Below are positions 1,658-21,882 of a DNA stretch of 21,882 bases, in pieces. Under the pieces are notes generated by a model. It saw nothing but the letters and a program-made list of their open reading frames with translations, did not search any database and was not told where the DNA came from. Source of the stretch: a virus. Numbering within the stretch: the stretch's first letter is position 1; every line of letters starts with the position of its first letter. The stretch covers positions 1 through 21,882 of IMG/VR virus record IMGVR_UViG_3300027782_000404; one strand, written 5' to 3'. The translations under genes and the position numbers were made by a program.

Positions 1658-1689
1658 TACTTTAGGGATTTGATGCCCTAGTATTTTCT
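1657..1689 (+). terminator. Putative rho-independent terminator of gene 32
   Basis: ATAC (1657-1660) pairs with GTAT (1681-1684), and TAGGG (1663-1667) pairs with CCCTA (1676-1680), with a 2-nt bulge and an 8-nt loop; a T-rich TTTTCT follows at 1684-1689. The T-tract is on the + strand side, so it would end the gene 32 transcript. It sits at the convergent junction and overlaps the 3' end of gene 53. Confidence 0.5.
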
Positions 1690-2318
1690 GTTCGAATTAA
1701 ATTAGGATTCACATACTGCGATGACTTGTCATAAGTCATCGCTTTTCTCATATCTGATATAAATTGCTGCAAGTATATTTTTTTCAGAATATAGATCCCA
1801 CGCTTTTTATTATTTTTTTCAACTTCATATTCATAATTACTAATACCAGACACAACCTGACTTTGAGTCAAATTTTGAGTTGGTATACTTGGATTTGGAA
1901 TTGTAAAAGTTGAATCAACAACTTTACCTGCTGGAAGAATCAAACGACCTTTAGAGTCTTTAATTTGTTGAGTTTCATAATGATGAATGTCATTTAAAGA
2001 TTCTCCATAAATGGATTCTGCATAATTGTAAACATCTCTATCAGAAAGTGGCCACTGGTCTCTGACTCTTGTAATTCCAGAACTAATTAATACTACCCAA
2101 TCATATTGACTGCTTCCATAAAGTTCTTCTGCTACAGTATCTGGTCTAGAACCATCAGGAATTTGATATTTGTCAAAGAGAGTGACAACATTCTGTAAAT
2201 CATCACGAAGTTTAGCACGACGGAATATATTCTTTACAACAACATATTCATCAGATGCTTGTCTGCTTGATAAAAATGATTGATATTCTAAATTTGGTAG
2301 TTCTCTGAAATAAGTCAT
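1662..2318 (-). CDS. 53: gp53 baseplate wedge protein
   Basis: This 218-aa protein resembles T4 gp53 (196 aa), the wedge component that joins neighbouring wedges and clamps them around the hub during baseplate assembly. Recognisable features are an N-terminal 'FRRAKLRDD' region, the segment 'DGSRPDTVAEELYGSSQYDW' (residues ~54-74; T4 has 'GSPRPEELANAIYGNPQLYW'), a Trp-rich stretch near residue 89 and a C-terminal 'IYILKKIYLQQFISDMRKAM' that parallels the T4 helix 'IKIIAKSDINSFMNDLIRIM'. It is the last gene of the minus-strand cluster; its ATG overlaps the gp48 stop by one base (TAATG). It converges on gene 32 with only 4 nt between the stops. No transmembrane segment is seen, consistent with a cytoplasmically assembled virion part. 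Confidence 0.85.
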   Translation of the reverse strand: MTYFRELPNLEYQSFLSSRQASDEYVVVKNIFRRAKLRDDLQNVVTLFDKYQIPDGSRPDTVAEELYGSSQYDWVVLISSGITRVRDQWPLSDRDVYNYAESIYGESLNDIHHYETQQIKDSKGRLILPAGKVVDSTFTIPNPSIPTQNLTQSQVVSGISNYEYEVEKNNKKRGIYILKKIYLQQFISDMRKAMTYDKSSQYVNPNLIRTENTRASNP

Positions 2319-3223
2319 TAGTATCCAACTCCGGTTTTGCCTTGACCACTTTCGTAATCTTCTGCGTAAATAGGTGTTAATTCTTGGAAAGATAAAGTTA
2401 ATTGCATATGAACTGGTGTTGCATCAGAGTATGTTGCATAAGTTCCAGATGCAGTATAATTTACACTCATACTTGTAAGAGCACAAATCTTAAATTTATT
2501 CAAGAATGGATGTTGCTTATTTCCACTCATATATTGTAAGCGAAAAACTTCTGGTGACTTGAGAAAGAGACCTGCTGCATCTCCAGAATTTAAACCTTTT
2601 TTAGCAGCAGAATAATATTTAAAATTTCGAATAATTTGTTTGATTTCTTCTGATTCTGAGTCATCTCTGGGGACCATATCAAATTGAAATGTAACTGGAG
2701 ATCTTAATTGAATTCCAGTAAATAAAAGTTCAATATTTTGATTGAAAGTAACTCCCTGCGATCTTGAGATAATTGACCCAGCATCTTGCTTTCCTAATGC
2801 TGCCTGAACAGCAGCAGCAGCAAATCCTGCTTGAATTGCTCCTTGCCCAACTCCAGTTTGCGCTGCGTTTGCAACTTTACCTACAAAATTAATTCCTTTT
2901 TTGAATGCATCTGCAAATCCACCTTTAATTGCACCAGTTGCTATATCATATACTGCACCTTCTAATGGATTTAGAGTTCCAGTTCCCCATTCAGAAGAAT
3001 TTTGGTCACTAATTCCTTCTGGAATTGGCAATATCACACTTCCTAGAATATCCTGATTTCCTTGACCTGCATATATCTGCCCATATGTTTGGTCTGATGA
3101 ATTCAAAGCAAAAGAATTCCCCTGAGTTCCAAGTCCCGGAGGTTTATATCGAATAAAATCAATCTTTAAATAATCATCACTTTCACGAAGTTTTGCTTTT
3201 GGATATCTATATGAGAAAGCCAT
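2318..3223 (-). CDS. 48: gp48 baseplate tail tube cap
   Basis: This 301-aa protein matches the gp48 pattern. A Ser/Gly/Asn-rich N-terminal half contains the segment 'ILGSVILPIPEGISDQN' (T4 gp48 has 'PIANILLPRS'). An Ala-rich helical central part (residues ~95-150) follows. The C-terminal tube-like fold includes 'PVTFQFDMVPRDDSESEEIK' (T4 'KVFTWDLTPRSTEDLMAI') and the ending 'HMQLTLSFQELTPIYAEDY' (T4 'PSTFTLEITMREIITLNRAS'). In T4, gp48 caps the hub-wedge dome and, with gp54, nucleates tube polymerisation. The protein is somewhat shorter than T4 gp48 (364 aa). It lies in the operon gp4 - 115-aa protein - gp48 - gp53; its start follows the upstream stop by 10 nt and its stop overlaps the gp53 start. 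Confidence 0.8.
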   Translation of the reverse strand: MAFSYRYPKAKLRESDDYLKIDFIRYKPPGLGTQGNSFALNSSDQTYGQIYAGQGNQDILGSVILPIPEGISDQNSSEWGTGTLNPLEGAVYDIATGAIKGGFADAFKKGINFVGKVANAAQTGVGQGAIQAGFAAAAVQAALGKQDAGSIISRSQGVTFNQNIELLFTGIQLRSPVTFQFDMVPRDDSESEEIKQIIRNFKYYSAAKKGLNSGDAAGLFLKSPEVFRLQYMSGNKQHPFLNKFKICALTSMSVNYTASGTYATYSDATPVHMQLTLSFQELTPIYAEDYESGQGKTGVGY

Positions 3224-3233
3224 TTATATTTTT

Positions 3234-3581
3234 CTAACTATTTATCCGTATTCTTCCATATGGAATCTTTCTTAAATCGCCAACTTCATTTCTATCTACT
3301 ATATGTAGAGGTCCAATAACTTCTTCCATCGTATATTGCCTCTGCTCTCCCCAGTGGAAGTTAATTCCACTAAATCCCCAAGAATAAACATTTGTGACTG
3401 CAACTAATGGATTTGCATCATATCTAATTCTAAGTGTTTTTGGTCTATAGACAAATGTATAAAATTTACCTGCTTCTGCCTTAGTGGCAGTTTGCTTTAA
3501 GACATCTAAAATTTCCAGCATCAAATCATCTGGATCTTCAGTTCCAATAAGTTTTTTAACCAGACCTTTGACGCGATTCAT
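3234..3581 (-). CDS. Conserved hypothetical protein, probably tail or head associated
   Basis: This 115-aa protein was not matched to any named T4 product. The N-terminal 35 residues are helical and acidic/basic ('EDPDDLMLEILDVLKQ'); the rest looks beta-rich with many aromatic residues ('FYTFVYRPKT', 'VYSWGFSGINFHWGEQRQY'). There are no cysteines, no signal peptide and no obvious catalytic motif. Its ATG overlaps the gp4 stop by 4 nt, and it is sandwiched between gp4 (head completion) and gp48 (baseplate), so it is probably expressed late with them and may be a small virion or assembly protein. I believe homologues occur at this position in other marine T4-like phages, but I cannot confirm that here. 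Confidence 0.6.
   Translation of the reverse strand: MNRVKGLVKKLIGTEDPDDLMLEILDVLKQTATKAEAGKFYTFVYRPKTLRIRYDANPLVAVTNVYSWGFSGINFHWGEQRQYTMEEVIGPLHIVDRNEVGDLRKIPYGRIRINS
3239..3246 (-). promoter_or_regulatory. Possible late promoter box upstream of gp48
   Basis: Read on the minus strand the bases are GATAAATA, one mismatch from the T4 late -10 consensus TATAAATA. It ends 15 nt upstream of the gp48 ATG, which would leave a leader of only about 9 nt, and it overlaps the 3' end of the upstream gene. In AT-rich DNA such an octamer can occur by chance, so support is weak. Confidence 0.25.
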
Positions 3582-4012
3582 ATTCCTAATTCGGTTTCTG
3601 TAATTACTTTGAACTCATAACCTCTATCAATACACCATTCTTTTGCTGCTTCCCACTTTGCTTGATTCTTTGCATATTCATATACTTCACTAATATATCT
3701 CTTAGTTTGTCTTTGTGGTTTTTGTGGTGGAGCAGTTTGTTTTTTGGGTTTAATCTCAATCATATACTTCTTAATTGTCCCATTAGATTCTTTGACTTTT
3801 ATAAGAAAATCTGGAAAATATCTATGCACTTTACCATCCACAGGAGACCTATATCCAATACACATTTCCTCACTTTGCCACTCTAAAATTCTTTCATTTG
3901 TATCACAATAAACACAAAATTTGCGTTCCCAAAGAGAACGGTAGATTATATTCGTGGGATCTCCTTTATATTTTTCTGGGTGAGAAGGTTTATATTTTCC
4001 CTTATATGACAT
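3578..4012 (-). CDS. 4: gp4 head completion protein (TnsA-like nuclease fold)
   Basis: This 144-aa protein is close to T4 gp4 (150 aa, also called gp50/65), needed to finish DNA-filled heads before tails join. Shared features run in order: 'GKYKP.HPEKYKGD' (residues 4-18), 'IYRSLWERKFCVYCDTN' (23-39), 'YRSPVDGKVHRYFPDFLI' (54-71), 'YMIEIKPK' (83-90) and 'YEYAKNQAKWEAA'. The arrangement Asp68 ... Glu86-Ile-Lys88 is a PD-(D/E)XK nuclease signature, and the family is related to the TnsA N-terminal endonuclease domain. It is the first gene of the minus-strand cluster, with a late-type promoter box in the 40-bp divergent gap just upstream. It overlaps the next gene by 4 nt. Confidence 0.9.
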   Translation of the reverse strand: MSYKGKYKPSHPEKYKGDPTNIIYRSLWERKFCVYCDTNERILEWQSEEMCIGYRSPVDGKVHRYFPDFLIKVKESNGTIKKYMIEIKPKKQTAPPQKPQRQTKRYISEVYEYAKNQAKWEAAKEWCIDRGYEFKVITETELGI

Positions 4013-4019
4013 CTAAATA
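4012..4019 (+). promoter_or_regulatory. Late promoter box (TCTAAATA) for the tail operon
   Basis: TCTAAATA differs by one base from the T4 late -10 consensus TATAAATA. Transcription would start near 4026, giving a leader of about 27 nt before the GTG at 4053. The same octamer faces the other way at 4045-4052, so this is half of a divergent pair. T4 late promoters have no -35 box and are recognised by gp55 with gp33 and gp45. Confidence 0.55.
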
Positions 4020-4044
4020 ACTACAATAACAGAATCATAATAGG

Positions 4045-4052
4045 TATTTAGA
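4045..4052 (-). promoter_or_regulatory. Late promoter box (TCTAAATA) for the gp4-gp53 operon
   Basis: Read on the minus strand this is TCTAAATA, identical to the octamer at 4012-4019 on the other strand. Transcription would start near 4038, about 26 nt before the gp4 ATG at 4012. The identical sequence and near-symmetrical spacing of the two boxes make a chance occurrence less likely. Confidence 0.55.
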
Positions 4053-4904
4053 GTGCCTACTCAGCCAAGAAGAATATCAGACATTAAACCATTAATAACT
4101 AATCTTGCTCAAACTTCTCACTATCAGGTGCAGTTTGGAAGTCTTCCTCCTGAATTAAGTTCATATCTTTTAGGAAAAGGAGTTGATTCTAGATTTATTG
4201 CAGAAGATGCTGGTCTTTTATGCTACTCTGCAATTCTTCCCACAACAAGTCTTGCAACTGCAAATGTTAGTGGAAATTTTACGGGAATCACAGAAAGATT
4301 TGCTCATACAAGACAGTATGATTCAATATCTCTTGATTTTTATGTTGATAAAAATTACACGGCTTTGAAATTTTTAGAATGCTGGATGGAATTTATTGCA
4401 AGTGGATCTACAAATCCAGTTGGGTTGGCTAATGAAAATGCACCAATAAGTGTAAATGCTAATAATTATTTTATTCGAATGCAATATCCTGCATTCTACA
4501 AAGCAAATGCGGTAAAGATTGTTAAATTTGATAGGGATTATAAGAAAGAAATTGAATATAATTTTAGAGGATTATTTCCTTCTGCCATCAGCTCTATACA
4601 AGTTAGTTATGTTTCTTCTGATACTCTAAAAATGTCTGCTACATTCCAGTATGACCGTTATATTGCTGGTAAAGCGACAAGTTTAAGTCAATTGATTGGG
4701 AATAATAATAATCTAAATCCTAATAACCCAAAAGTATCACAATCTAATATAAATTCTGTACAATCTTTGGATGATATTAGTAAAAAAATAGTAGATTCTC
4801 AGAAGCAAGTCTCTAATACTGATTATTCTAAAGTTTTTACTCCATCTTCTCCAAGCAATCAATCAAATCAGACTACTTCGGGTGATTGGTGGAGAGCACT
4901 TTGA
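4053..4904 (+). CDS. 54: gp54-like baseplate tail tube initiator
   Basis: This 283-aa protein starts at a GTG (4053) that follows AGGT at 4042-4045 with 7 nt spacing; no in-frame ATG gives a better start. Residues ~20-215 look like the gp19/gp54 tail-tube fold: 'HYQVQFGSLP', 'ATANVSGNFTGITERFAHTR' (T4 gp19: 'INVAGDRTFDDW'), 'YDSISLDFYVDKNYTALKFL', and a later strand pair ending 'LKMSATFQYDRY' (T4 gp19 'IQTFEVTLALDYW'). The last ~70 residues are Asn/Ser/Gln-rich and end in 'DWWRAL'. Length fits gp54 (about 320 aa in T4) better than gp19 (163 aa), and gp48, its T4 partner, lies in the divergent operon. In T4, gp54 sits on the gp48 ring and starts tube polymerisation. It could instead be another tube paralogue. 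Confidence 0.65.
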   Translation: MPTQPRRISDIKPLITNLAQTSHYQVQFGSLPPELSSYLLGKGVDSRFIAEDAGLLCYSAILPTTSLATANVSGNFTGITERFAHTRQYDSISLDFYVDKNYTALKFLECWMEFIASGSTNPVGLANENAPISVNANNYFIRMQYPAFYKANAVKIVKFDRDYKKEIEYNFRGLFPSAISSIQVSYVSSDTLKMSATFQYDRYIAGKATSLSQLIGNNNNLNPNNPKVSQSNINSVQSLDDISKKIVDSQKQVSNTDYSKVFTPSSPSNQSNQTTSGDWWRAL

Positions 4905-4912
4905 TATTGAGT

Positions 4913-4920
4913 AATAAATA
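4913..4920 (+). promoter_or_regulatory. Late promoter box (AATAAATA) upstream of gene 26
   Basis: AATAAATA matches the T4 late -10 consensus in 7 of 8 positions. It lies in the short gap between the gp54-like stop (4904) and the gp26-like start (4947); a start near 4927 would leave a leader of about 20 nt. Confidence 0.45.
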
Positions 4921-4946: not shown

Positions 4947-5666
4947 ATGCCTTTACCAAAGATTGCCACACCAACATATGAGTTGGAAATTCCTTCAATT
5001 AAAAAGTCAATTAAATATCGTCCCTTTCTTGTAAAAGAAGAAAAGATTCTTATTATTGCGATGGAGAGTGAAGATCCAAAGCAAATTACTGAAGCAGTAA
5101 AAACAGTAATTGGGAATTGTGTTCTTACAAGAGGAATTAAGATTGAGCAACTTTCAACGTTTGATATTGAATATTTGTTCTTAAATATTCGTGGAAAGTC
5201 AGTTGGTGAGCAGGTTGATGTTCTTATTACTTGCCCTGATGATGGAGAAACTCAAGTTCCTGTAAGTATTAATCTTGATGATATTAAAGTTCAAGTTGGA
5301 GAAACTCATAGTAGAGATATTAAACTTGATGATACTCTAACATTAAGAATGAAGTATCCTTCTATGCAGGAGTTCATTAAAAATAATTTCAATAATGAAA
5401 GTGAGATTAGTGTTGATGATACTTTTGATATGATTTCTTCTTGTGTCGAACAAATCTATAGTGAAGAAGAATCTTGGTCTACATCTGATGTGACCAAAAA
5501 AGAAATCCTAGAATTTCTTGGAGATTTGAGTTCGAAGCAGTTTAAGGATATTGAGAAGTTTTTTGAAACGATGCCTAAACTTTCTCATACAATTAAAATC
5601 AAAAATCCAAATACTGATGTGGAAAGTGAAGTAGTTCTTGAGGGTTTAACATCTTTTTTCGCGTAG
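4947..5666 (+). CDS. 26: gp26-like baseplate hub/tail assembly protein (T4 baseplate family)
   Basis: This 239-aa protein resembles T4 gp26 (208 aa), of the T4 base-plate family that includes gp26 and gp51. The N-terminal region shows 'SIKYRPFLVKEEKILIIAME' (residues ~19-38), then 'DIEYLFLNIRGKSVGE' (~70-85; T4 has 'LVEYLFVKLRIISVGE') and a beta-rich middle. The C-terminal half is helical ('FLGDLSSKQFKDIEKFFETM'). A weak AGG lies 5 nt before the ATG. The gene ends TCT TTT TTC GCG TAG, where the in-phase T TTT TTC is a canonical -1 slippery heptamer followed by a hairpin. A -1 shift after residue 238 would add 60 residues and give a 298-aa form. Position between a tube-like gene and tape-measure-like genes matches tail assembly chaperones of other phages, so an assembly rather than virion role is plausible. 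Confidence 0.8.
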   Translation: MPLPKIATPTYELEIPSIKKSIKYRPFLVKEEKILIIAMESEDPKQITEAVKTVIGNCVLTRGIKIEQLSTFDIEYLFLNIRGKSVGEQVDVLITCPDDGETQVPVSINLDDIKVQVGETHSRDIKLDDTLTLRMKYPSMQEFIKNNFNNESEISVDDTFDMISSCVEQIYSEEESWSTSDVTKKEILEFLGDLSSKQFKDIEKFFETMPKLSHTIKIKNPNTDVESEVVLEGLTSFFA

Positions 5667-17775: not shown

Positions 17776-20700
17776 ATGGCAAAATACGGTAGTGGTAGTA
17801 AAAAGGTAACTCCTAATGTTGGTCTACGCACCAGTAGATATCAATATTTGACACTTGAGGATGCTGAACCTAATTTGGGATTTACTAGTGAGAAAGTATT
17901 GCCAATTAAAGATAATTATTATCAATTAGTATCTTTTGATGGGGGAACAGTATATGATAGATATTGGCAAGTAGCTCCTGCAGGAATTATTACTGGTATT
18001 TCCGTATTTGATGAAGGTGGTATTGTAGGTACAGGAAATAGTATTAACAAACTTGATTTTCGTGGAAATATTATTACTGCTACTGCAAATGATTTTGGAA
18101 CAATTTCAACAATTACGGTTGCACCACCAGGAAGTGATACGCAACTTATCTATAATTCTGGTGGAAATTTTGCAGCATCAGCAAATCTAAGATTCTCTTC
18201 AAATATACTTTCTGTTACTGGACTTGGAAGTTTTTCTCAGGGTTCTTATAATCAAAATGTAAGAATTGGTGTTGCAAGTAATAATGTAATTGATACAACA
18301 AGTGGTAATTTAGTTCTTGATGCAAATAGTGGTATTACTTCAATTAAGAGCGTTCTACTGGCAGGAATCACAACATTTAGTGGATCTAATTCATCAAATT
18401 TAGTTACACTTTCTCAGACTGGAACTGGTAATGCTTTATTTGCAAATGGAACTGTAATTAGTGGTCTGGGATCGATTGGAGTTGGGACAACAGTTCCAAC
18501 ACAAGAACTTGATGTAAATGGAGATGTCCGTATAAGAGGAACAATTTATGATTATAACAACCAACCAGGAAATAATAGCGATATTCTCATAAAGAATAGT
18601 GTTGGTGGGTTGGAGTGGGTAAATCAATCCACAGTTGAAACTGGTGCTGGTGGTACATATACAAATATTCAGTATCACACCTATGCTGGAAAACTGGGCG
18701 GTGCTCCCAATTTTGTATATGAATCTAATACTAGTAGGGTCGGTATAGGAACTACAATTCCAACAAGTACACTTACAATCTTTGGTTCTTTTGCAACAGG
18801 TTTAACTGCAAATACACTTTCTGTCACAAACGATTCTGATGGAATTGTAAGGCTAGGTGCTGCTATTATTAGTACTCCAACAGGAACTGGAAGACTTAAT
18901 ATTCAAGATAGACAGGGAACTTATTTATCCCTATACGTTTCAACTGGATTAGTAGGAAGATTGAATGCTGTTGGATCTGCTGGATCGGATCTTGCATTAG
19001 AAGTTGGTGGAACTGAAAGATTGAGAATACTTGGAGCAAGTGGCAATATTGGTATAGCAACTACAAGTCCAGCAGCAAAACTTCATGTTGTTGGTGATGC
19101 ACAAGTCGATGGTAATATAAGAGTTGGTATTTCTACTACATCAAACTATATTGCTTTTAGGGGAACTTATGGTGATGATTCATCACTTTATACACATACC
19201 TTTATTGGTGAAAGAATATATGATTATAGTGGAGGTGGTGAAAGATCGGAACTTTTATTATTTAAAGGAAATGATTATGCTGATGGTTCTTCTGGTCCAG
19301 ACAGAATTCGTTTAGCAGCAGGAGAATTTAGATTTGATACTATTAATACTTATATTGCTGGTACTTTTGAGCAAGTAGCAACAAGTGCAAATATCACCAA
19401 TAAGATGATTCTTACTGGTGATGGAAATCTTGGTATAGGAACCACAGTCCCAATATCAAAACTTGATGTTAATGGTAATGTTAGAGTCGTTGGAGTTCTT
19501 ACTGCAACAAGGGGAGCAAGATTTAATAATATAGATGTTGGAATTTCGGATGCTAATACAATCAGCACTCCTACTGGAAATTTAACTCTCGATTCTTTTG
19601 CAGGAACAACAGTTATTAAGGATATTCTTTCTGTAGATGATACATCAGCAACAACAAGTACAACTGATGGGGCACTTGTTGTTAAAGGTGGCGTCGGTAT
19701 TGCAGGAAGTCTTAATATTGGTGGGCATATTGCAGTTGGCAGTACTTTTGGAGTTACTGGAACTTCATTTTTAAAGCAATCAATTATATCTGGTATTGCA
19801 TCCTTTACAAATACAACCGAATCAACAAATAAAGATACTGGATCAGTTATTGTTGAAGGTGGAGTTGGAATTGAAAAGAATTTAAATGTTGGTGGCGCAT
19901 CATCGATTAGTGGTATTACAACATTCGGATCTAATGTCCTTCCTTTCAATAATTCAACTCAAAATATTGGTAGTGAATCTCAAAAATGGAGTAATGTTTG
20001 GGCAACTACATTTAATGGAAAATTCCTAGGAAATGCAGACACCGCTGGTTATGCAACCACGGCAGGTATGTCAACCAATCTTATTGGAACTGTAGTTGGT
20101 TCAATTCCTTATCAATCTGGAAATAATCAGACTTCATTTACTCAAGTTGGAACTGCCAAATCTTTACTACAATCAAATGGTACAAGTGCTCCTACATGGA
20201 TTAATCCTGGTACTTTGAATGTTGCATACGCATCTAGTGCAGGCATATCAACTAATCTTGCAGGCGGTAGTCCTGGAGTTGTTCCTTATCAAAATAATAC
20301 GGGAATAACCTCATTTACTCAAGTTGGAACTGCTAATTCATTATTACAATCTAATGGTACAAATGCTCCTACATGGATAGATCCAGGAACATTAAAAGTT
20401 GCATATGCATCATCCGCAGGTATTTCAACAAATCTTGCGGGTATTGGTATTACTGGAGCAATTCCTTATCAATCTGGAAATAATCAAACTTCATTCACTC
20501 AAGTTGGAACTGCTGGGTCATTATTGCAATCTAATGGTTTGAATGCACCTACGTGGGTAGAACCATCTGGATTGTCGGTCAAATTTGCTGGTTATGCAAC
20601 TACCGCAGGTATAGCAACCAATCTTAAAGGTATTTCTGGAAATATTGGTCAAGTACCTTGGCAATCTGGAATTAGTACTACTACATTTACTACTGGTGGA

Positions 20701-21882
20701 TCTACCGGACAATTGTTACAATGGGGTGGTGCTACTGGACCTACTTGGGTTAGTCCATTAGGATTATTTGTTCAAAATGCTGGATATGCGACTACAGCAG
20801 GTATTGCTACTTACGCTACTAATGCTGGTGTAGCAACTTATGCAACGAGAGCTGGTTTATCAACTAATCTTGTAAGTATTGCTGCTACTGGTCAAGTACC
20901 TTATCAATCCGCAGACAATACAACTTTATTCACTACTGGTGGAATAGGTGGTAATTTATTGCAGTATAATGGTCTAGGTGGTCCTATTTGGACTTCACCA
21001 CAAGGTCTAACAATTGGATATGCTCTTACAGCAGGCATATCAACGTATGCAACTAAAGCAGGTATTGCTACTTATGCTGATAATGCTGGCATAGCAACCA
21101 ATCTTAAAGGTATTTCTGGAAATATTGGTCAAGTACCTTGGCAATCTGGAATTAGTACTACTTCATTTACTACTAGTGGTATTAGTGGATCTAGTTTATT
21201 GCAATATGGTGGAATCACGGGCCCCACATGGGTCGCACCAACAAATCTTACGGTCCAAAATGCTGGATATGCCGATAATGCTGGTATAGCAACTCATCTT
21301 AAATTAGGTGCTCAGGGAAGTATTCCTTATCAAACTTCTAGTAGTCAAACTACATTTTTAGCAGCTACTGGATCAAGTGGTTTTGTATTAACATATGATA
21401 CAACATCTAACGCACCTAAATGGGTCGATCCACTAAATTTTAAGGTTAAATCTGCTGACTATGCCGATAATGCTGGTATAGCAACTAATCTTAAATTAGG
21501 TGCTCAGGGAAGTATTCCTTATCAAACTTCTAGTAGTCAAACTACATTTTTAGCAGCTACTGGATCAAGTGGTTTTGTATTAACATATAATACAAGTCTT
21601 AGTCGACCTGAATGGATTAATCCACTAAATTTTAAGGTTAAATCTGCTGACTATGCCGATAATGCTGGTATATCAACTAACATTAAAGGTGGTTCTGGCG
21701 GGTCTATTCCATATCAAACTTCTAGTAGTCAAACTACATTTTTAGCAGCTACTGGATCAAGTGGTTTTGTATTAACATATGATACAAGTCTTGGTCAACC
21801 TAAATGGGTCGATCCACTAAATTTTAAGGTTAAATCTACTGACTATGCCGATAATGCTGGTATATCAACTAACATTAAAGGT
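17776..21882 (+). CDS. Long repeat-built tail fibre protein (3' end outside window)
   Basis: The frame is open from the ATG at 17776 to the last base, 1369 codons with no stop, so the C-terminal tip is missing. The N-terminal ~80 residues ('MAKYGSGSKKVTPNVGL', 'YYQLVSFDGGTVYDRYW') probably attach to the baseplate. The shaft has 'GSIGVGTTVPTQELDVNG' at residue 232, 'NIGIATTSPAAKLHVVG' and 'NLGIGTTVPISKLDVNG', then two 'GALVVKGGVGIAGSLNIGG'-type modules and 'NIGSESQKWSNVWATTFNGK'. From about residue 760 it is made of 59-64-residue repeats with the pattern 'IPYQSGNNQTSFTQVGTA', 'LLQSNGTNAPTWIDP', 'AGISTNL'. This architecture is typical of cyanophage receptor-binding fibres. The closing repeats are nearly identical at DNA level. 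Host-receptor contact is inferred from the architecture. Confidence 0.8.
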   Translation, partial: MAKYGSGSKKVTPNVGLRTSRYQYLTLEDAEPNLGFTSEKVLPIKDNYYQLVSFDGGTVYDRYWQVAPAGIITGISVFDEGGIVGTGNSINKLDFRGNIITATANDFGTISTITVAPPGSDTQLIYNSGGNFAASANLRFSSNILSVTGLGSFSQGSYNQNVRIGVASNNVIDTTSGNLVLDANSGITSIKSVLLAGITTFSGSNSSNLVTLSQTGTGNALFANGTVISGLGSIGVGTTVPTQELDVNGDVRIRGTIYDYNNQPGNNSDILIKNSVGGLEWVNQSTVETGAGGTYTNIQYHTYAGKLGGAPNFVYESNTSRVGIGTTIPTSTLTIFGSFATGLTANTLSVTNDSDGIVRLGAAIISTPTGTGRLNIQDRQGTYLSLYVSTGLVGRLNAVGSAGSDLALEVGGTERLRILGASGNIGIATTSPAAKLHVVGDAQVDGNIRVGISTTSNYIAFRGTYGDDSSLYTHTFIGERIYDYSGGGERSELLLFKGNDYADGSSGPDRIRLAAGEFRFDTINTYIAGTFEQVATSANITNKMILTGDGNLGIGTTVPISKLDVNGNVRVVGVLTATRGARFNNIDVGISDANTISTPTGNLTLDSFAGTTVIKDILSVDDTSATTSTTDGALVVKGGVGIAGSLNIGGHIAVGSTFGVTGTSFLKQSIISGIASFTNTTESTNKDTGSVIVEGGVGIEKNLNVGGASSISGITTFGSNVLPFNNSTQNIGSESQKWSNVWATTFNGKFLGNADTAGYATTAGMSTNLIGTVVGSIPYQSGNNQTSFTQVGTAKSLLQSNGTSAPTWINPGTLNVAYASSAGISTNLAGGSPGVVPYQNNTGITSFTQVGTANSLLQSNGTNAPTWIDPGTLKVAYASSAGISTNLAGIGITGAIPYQSGNNQTSFTQVGTAGSLLQSNGLNAPTWVEPSGLSVKFAGYATTAGIATNLKGISGNIGQVPWQSGISTTTFTTGGSTGQLLQWGGATGPTWVSPLGLFVQNAGYATTAGIATYATNAGVATYATRAGLSTNLVSIAATGQVPYQSADNTTLFTTGGIGGNLLQYNGLGGPIWTSPQGLTIGYALTAGISTYATKAGIATYADNAGIATNLKGISGNIGQVPWQSGISTTSFTTSGISGSSLLQYGGITGPTWVAPTNLTVQNAGYADNAGIATHLKLGAQGSIPYQTSSSQTTFLAATGSSGFVLTYDTTSNAPKWVDPLNFKVKSADYADNAGIATNLKLGAQGSIPYQTSSSQTTFLAATGSSGFVLTYNTSLSRPEWINPLNFKVKSADYADNAGISTNIKGGSGGSIPYQTSSSQTTFLAATGSSGFVLTYDTSLGQPKWVDPLNFKVKSTDYADNAGISTNIKG
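20611..20682 (+). repeat. Exact 72-bp direct repeat, copy 1
   Basis: These 72 bases recur without a mismatch at 21091-21162, 480 bp downstream, and encode 'IATNLKGISGNIGQVPWQSG' and the next few residues. The flanking units differ, so this copy was probably exchanged or duplicated recently. Confidence 0.85.
20785..20865 (+). repeat. Three 27-bp (9-aa) subrepeats, YATTAGIAT type
   Basis: Three consecutive nine-residue units read YATTAGIAT, YATNAGVAT and YATRAGLST. They extend one fibre repeat beyond the usual length. Confidence 0.75.
21019..21099 (+). repeat. Three 27-bp (9-aa) subrepeats, second cluster
   Basis: Units YALTAGIST, YATKAGIAT and YADNAGIAT run head to tail, like the cluster at 20785-20865 but with different codons and residues at variable positions. 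Confidence 0.75.
21091..21162 (+). repeat. Exact 72-bp direct repeat, copy 2
   Basis: This copy is identical to 20611-20682. It begins at the last codons of a 9-aa subrepeat cluster and ends inside the 'SGIST' segment. Confidence 0.85.
21271..21882 (+). repeat. 192-bp tandem repeat array (three full units, fourth begun)
   Basis: Units start at GCCGATAATGC at 21271, 21463, 21655 and 21847, a constant 192-bp (64-codon) period. The central part of each unit (from CAAACTTCTAGTAG to TTAACATA) and the end (CCACTAAATTTTAAGGTTAAA) are identical in the three copies. Differences cluster in two places: just after 'AGI.TN' and at the 'YDTTSNAPKWVD' position. The array continues past the window edge. Confidence 0.9.

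Follow-up and report, generated by a model that had tools for sequence, protein, structure and literature searches.

Facing T4-type late promoters very probably occupy the 40-bp gap at the gene 4 junction of a cyanophage-like myovirus

The window, by which we mean the whole stretch of 21,882 nucleotides analysed here, is part of the genome of a T4-like myovirus that stands close to cyanophages (phages of blue-green bacteria). Two sets of particle genes diverge from a 40 bp gap within it. Leftward from position 4012 lie gp4, a gp2-like gene, gp48 and gp53, and rightward from 4053 lie a tail-tube-type gene, a gp26-like gene and further tail genes (Table 1). Near the left end a DUF1825 (PHROG 468) protein is encoded at 349-681, flanked by gp59-like and gp32-like genes, in what we take to be the slot where T4-like phages often have gene 33, and a CTAAATA is found at 300-306, 42 nt upstream of it. 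At the right end, an open frame of 1369 aa (17776-21882) reaches the end of the window and carries many imperfect repeats of 177-192 nt; it probably encodes a tail-fibre-type protein made of repeats.

Table 1. Features at the gp4 junction and in the flanking genes (window coordinates).
Feature	Position	Strand	Evidence or remark
gp53 baseplate wedge gene	1662..2318	-	PHROG 232
gp48 baseplate tail-tube cap gene	2318..3223	-	PHROG 230
gp2-like gene (DNA end protector family)	3234..3581	-	PHROG 429, E 5e-15
ATAAATA, additional late-promoter-like element, 15 nt before gp48	3239..3245	-	
gp4 head-closure (head completion) gene, first of the leftward operon	3578..4012	-	PHROG 218, E 1e-60; ATG 4012
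CTAAATA, putative late-promoter -10-type element (-12 to -6), tail operon	4013..4019	+	conserved in 128/128 evaluable loci
Predicted transcript overlap, 15 complementary 5'-terminal nt	4025..4039		from T4 geometry (PMC1524935, PMC7892883)
TAGG, weak putative Shine-Dalgarno-like sequence, 8 nt before GTG 4053	4041..4044	+	from sequence
CTAAATA, putative late-promoter -10-type element, gp4 operon	4045..4051	-	one base short of GTG 4053; conserved in 128/128 evaluable loci
Tail-tube-type protein gene (gp54-like position), first of the rightward operon	4053..4904	+	PHROG 45, Pfam Phage_TTP_2; GTG 4053
ATAAATA, additional late-promoter-like element, 26 nt before the gp26-like gene	4914..4920	+	
gp26-like baseplate hub protein gene	4947..5666	+	PHROG 150, Pfam T4_baseplate

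The gap between the gp4 ATG and the tail-tube-type GTG is filled by a pair of TCTAAATA octamers, at 4012-4019 (+) and 4052-4045 (-), with 25 nt between them (4020-4044). These positions, the spacing and both start codons are as the original prediction gave them. Its description of the promoters as divergent is right for the genes, which do diverge, and wrong for the promoters, which face each other (the + element comes first, then the - element), each predicted transcript crossing the other's -10 element. The T at 4012, the first base of the octamer on the + strand, is part of the gp4 ATG, and the conserved, informative unit is therefore the heptamer CTAAATA. From element to start codon the distance in the window is 32-33 nt, the typical range elsewhere being 14-33 nt.

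The abundance of the octamer is not noteworthy: the window has four copies where 1.96 ± 1.10 are expected (not significant), and 9 of 100 shuffles match or exceed this number. Two of the copies are the junction pair, and the other two (299 and 12710) lie inside coding sequence. Similarly, a matrix trained on the late promoters of relatives gave 6 hits in the window and 5.9 in shuffles, i.e. no excess. Conservation at this position is another matter. Loci were gathered from IMG/VR by protein similarity to gp4 or the tail protein (n = 131), and the strict facing pattern CTAAATA-N(8-30)-TATTTAG is present in 128 of them; the remaining three reach a contig end before the junction, which makes 128/128 evaluable loci, and the reversed control pattern occurs in 0/131. 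After thinning to below 80% nucleotide identity in gp4, 47 gp4/tube junctions were left. A facing [A/C]TAAATA pair is kept in 45 of these, with C on both sides in 33, while the bases between the two elements vary and gp4 is near saturation at its fourfold-degenerate sites (agreement in 40% of comparisons). Each of the 14 contigs searched has the facing CTAAATA pair exactly once; divergent gene pairs themselves are few, with only two in the large relative G005 and one in G007. That an AT-rich octamer simply arose in an AT-rich gap would be compatible with the window count, but it is refuted by conservation in every evaluable locus alongside near-saturated synonymous sites, and we give it virtually no credence. 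The pair is thus set apart from chance by position and conservation, despite its ordinary number.

The pair also persists where its neighbourhood has been broken up. The gp4 and tail matches are far apart in six loci, and the promoter pair is intact in each. Extra sequence or an ORF splits the pair from gp4 in L019, L103, L113, L118 and L122, the pair staying beside the tail gene, and in Krischvirus MIZ3 an intact pair remains beside the partner gene. In L019, L103 and L113, the partial sequences of ORFs inserted between gp4 and the pair resemble homing endonucleases by eye, and a homing endonuclease is annotated in a comparable insert of Krischvirus MIZ3 (L470).

The identity of the elements was addressed in two large relatives, G005 and G007 (contigs of 213 and 175 kb), in which gene starts were called by a simple longest-ORF rule and the junction itself was left out of the counts. 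Across both, 60 of the 134 ATAAATA sites precede a same-strand start by 10-45 nt, and the motif is the top-ranked permutation of its letters; for CTAAATA the figure is 17 of 51 sites, with rank 1 of 105 letter permutations. GTAAATA (2/95) and TTAAATA (3/120) are at background level. Since [A/C]TAAATA marks gene starts and G/TTAAATA does not, the elements are very probably late promoters of the T4 type. Both junction sites have the TAAATA core with A/C at -12, at leader distance upstream of virion genes (gp4 and the tail-tube-type gene). T4 late promoters depend on gp55, gp33 and gp45. Homologues of gp55 (5e-19) and gp45 (2e-28) are encoded by G005, the window itself being a fragment; neither was found in G007, a possibly incomplete contig. 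The positional enrichment of [A/C]TAAATA and the conservation of the pair support the original proposal that the two octamers are the late promoters of the two operons, and on this sequence evidence they very probably are.

A further claim, that TCTAAATA marks the late-promoter preference of this phage, did not hold. In the two relatives ATAAATA outnumbers CTAAATA upstream of starts (60 against 17), the window too has ATAAATA ahead of gp48 and of the gp26-like gene, and the leading T at 4012 belongs to the gp4 start codon. C occupies -12 in only 22% of the other elements in the two relatives, yet it is found on both sides in 33 of the 47 dereplicated junctions, and junction elements with C at -12 are possibly a promoter subclass. 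For annotation, the clade uses C as well as A at -12, and an element may begin within the opposite start codon.

The T4 late element TATAAATA occupies -13 to -6 (PMC1524935), T4-type late promoters have no -35 element (PMC2988020), and the late element of S-PM2 is NATAAATA (PMC2984593). Like those of T4, the window's elements are short, AT-rich, of -10 type, without a -35, and ahead of late virion genes, and in T4, too, the divergent genes 4 and 53 have a facing pair of elements between them. The window differs in having C instead of A at -12 and a tail-tube-type gene instead of gp53 as partner; the inner spacing is 25 bp versus 7 in T4, so that the predicted transcripts would overlap in the window. 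Cyanophage late promoters (NATAAATA in S-PM2 and Syn9) are of the same motif class and serve late virion genes, and S-PM2 has facing elements at its gp4/tube junction as the window does, whereas the window has C at -12 on both sides. CTAAATA as a late element is already known from the Aeromonas phage Aeh1, where it starts at -12 (PMC1524935), and this heptamer is common to the window. In contrast to the window, the elements at the gp48/gp4 junction of PX29 (the Aeromonas phage examined for the Aeh1 type), CC2, 65 and Vibrio CZ01 are back-to-back, and ATAAATA is the commoner form genome-wide in the window's relatives. In the open-access literature we found no paper on facing late promoters at T4 gene 4/53.

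Taken alone, the junction would fit either a promoter or a translation signal, as each element is next to one start and precedes the other by 32-33 nt. TATTTAG(A) adjoins both starts in the window, as it does in almost every relative, and it could be a ribosome-binding or start context whose promoter look is a by-product. However, outside the gp4 junction no start codon in G005 and G007 adjoins the reverse complement of CTAAATA/ATAAATA, whereas the forward element shows strong enrichment in the 10-45 nt preceding starts; leader structure is unremarkable. We therefore rejected a translation signal, which is very unlikely, on the grounds of the confined abutting form and the upstream enrichment of the forward one. 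The octamers also form a perfect 8-bp inverted repeat, as would half-sites for a dimeric protein or the arms of an RNA stem. Against such an operator or hairpin, arm spacing ranges from 7 to 26 bp, arm order is swapped in other lineages, neither predicted transcript contains both arms, and the same heptamer precedes single late genes; this origin of the repeat is extremely unlikely. RNA structure in the leaders was rejected as well (z of -0.7 and 0.2).

Two late promoters facing each other thus remain the preferred reading, and the two diverging particle-gene sets are very probably switched on by these start signals in the 40-base gap. The mechanism that we infer, from promoter activity and sigma recognition through start sites to steric exclusion, would run as follows. 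A sigma factor of the gp55 family, helped by gp33 and the gp45 clamp, would recognise both elements, each CTAAATA being set against the opposite gene's start codon, and RNA would begin inside the gap. With T4 geometry (octamer at -13 to -6) the predicted starts are about 4025 (+) and 4039 (-), ±1, within 1 nt of the 4026 (+) and 4038 (-) proposed originally, and would give the overlap in Table 1. Each RNA would cross the other promoter's -10 element and reach its operon with a leader of about 27 nt, the rightward RNA running into the tail tube, gp26 and onward, the leftward into gp4, gp2, gp48 and gp53. T4 late polymerase unwinds -12 to +2 (PMC7892883), which would place the two unwound regions next to each other, at 4013-4026 and 4038-4051, while the clamp extends the activated T4 complex 13 bp upstream (PMC2988020). 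With 25 bp between the elements, a polymerase bound to one would cover the other, and only one direction would fire at any instant. Simultaneous occupancy by two polymerases, each with its upstream clamp, would be sterically implausible, and it is this geometry that backs the original proposal that the two sites could not be filled together.

Face-to-face divergent promoters in bacteria have crossing transcripts and mutually excluding polymerases. By comparison, the element in the window is of the phage late-sigma type and, so far as is known, constitutive during the late phase; no site for a regulator was identified at the junction.

Across the T4 family, the gene facing gp4 changes by lineage and may be tube, gp48, gp2 or gp53. 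Facing elements are present in 178 of 186 distinct gp4/tube junctions, P-SSM2 and S-PM2 among them, with a single element in the other 8. The gp4/gp48 junctions of marine phages such as Syn19 have them in 44/52, and the gp4/gp53 junctions of T4 relatives in 5/5; in T4 itself two TATAAATA face each other with 7 bp between. Proteus, Acinetobacter, Klebsiella P545 and Krischvirus phages also have facing elements. In Aeromonas 65, CC2, PX29 and Vibrio CZ01 the elements are instead back-to-back with 0-9 bp between, as they are in all 11 gp4/gp2 junctions of pelagiphages, and P-TIM40 has no pair at its annotated junction. The facing geometry is therefore not required at the junction. As orientation differs by lineage, the conserved property is a tight late promoter pair rather than one orientation: judged from sequence, such an overlapping pair is found at gene 4 in most T4-like lineages sampled, and its orientation flips between them. 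Nor are facing pairs as such a general signal, since facing TAAATA pairs are not enriched across the T4 genome (6 per strand; reversed control, 11). Some annotated starts at these junctions may need revision. The back-to-back elements of pelagiphage gp2/gp4 (L161, L408-L432) are only about 5 nt from the annotated starts, which suggests leaderless mRNAs or misplaced starts. In L165 (S-RIM44) and L461 (Klebsiella KP5) an upstream ATG beside the pair or element fits better than the annotated gp4 start, which appears to have been placed too far downstream.

What keeps the promoters so close can be considered in terms of space or of control. The distance from element end to start codon has a median of 26-27 nt at the junction and 21 elsewhere. 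From these leader distances, a facing pair needs roughly one leader plus one element and a back-to-back pair about twice that, or about 55-75 bp; the gaps observed are 30-50 bp for facing pairs and 54-73 bp for the back-to-back pairs of Aeromonas/Vibrio. Compaction is sufficient to explain the facing arrangement, and we consider it highly probable, from the sequence, that the gap (4013-4052) holds two facing T4-type late promoters with packing as the most economical reason. Alternatively, the overlap itself may have been selected, one engaged polymerase making the two operons share initiations so that their output is balanced or switched over time. The elements are at most 26 bp apart when facing and 0-9 bp when back-to-back, which would mean exclusion in every lineage seen, and the 13 bp upstream extension of the T4 complex by the clamp points the same way (PMC2988020). 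However, a tuned coupling would probably not allow the observed variation in spacing (7-26 bp) and even in orientation, the internal late-promoter-like elements at 3239-3245 and 4914-4920 in both operons would dilute the effect, and compaction predicts the same gap sizes. Selected competition is therefore a tentative idea and on balance unlikely.

An improbable extension would make the gene 4 junction of T4-like phages a conserved direction selector, with one late initiation zone shared by both directions, only one of which could be used at a time; replication, by setting the polarity of the gp45 clamp, would determine which virion operon is fired. If this were true, the balance between the left and right operons would be coupled to fork direction. 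The junction provides a conserved natural case, including in the well-studied T4, for questions of promoter interference with sigma-gp55 and of clamp polarity.
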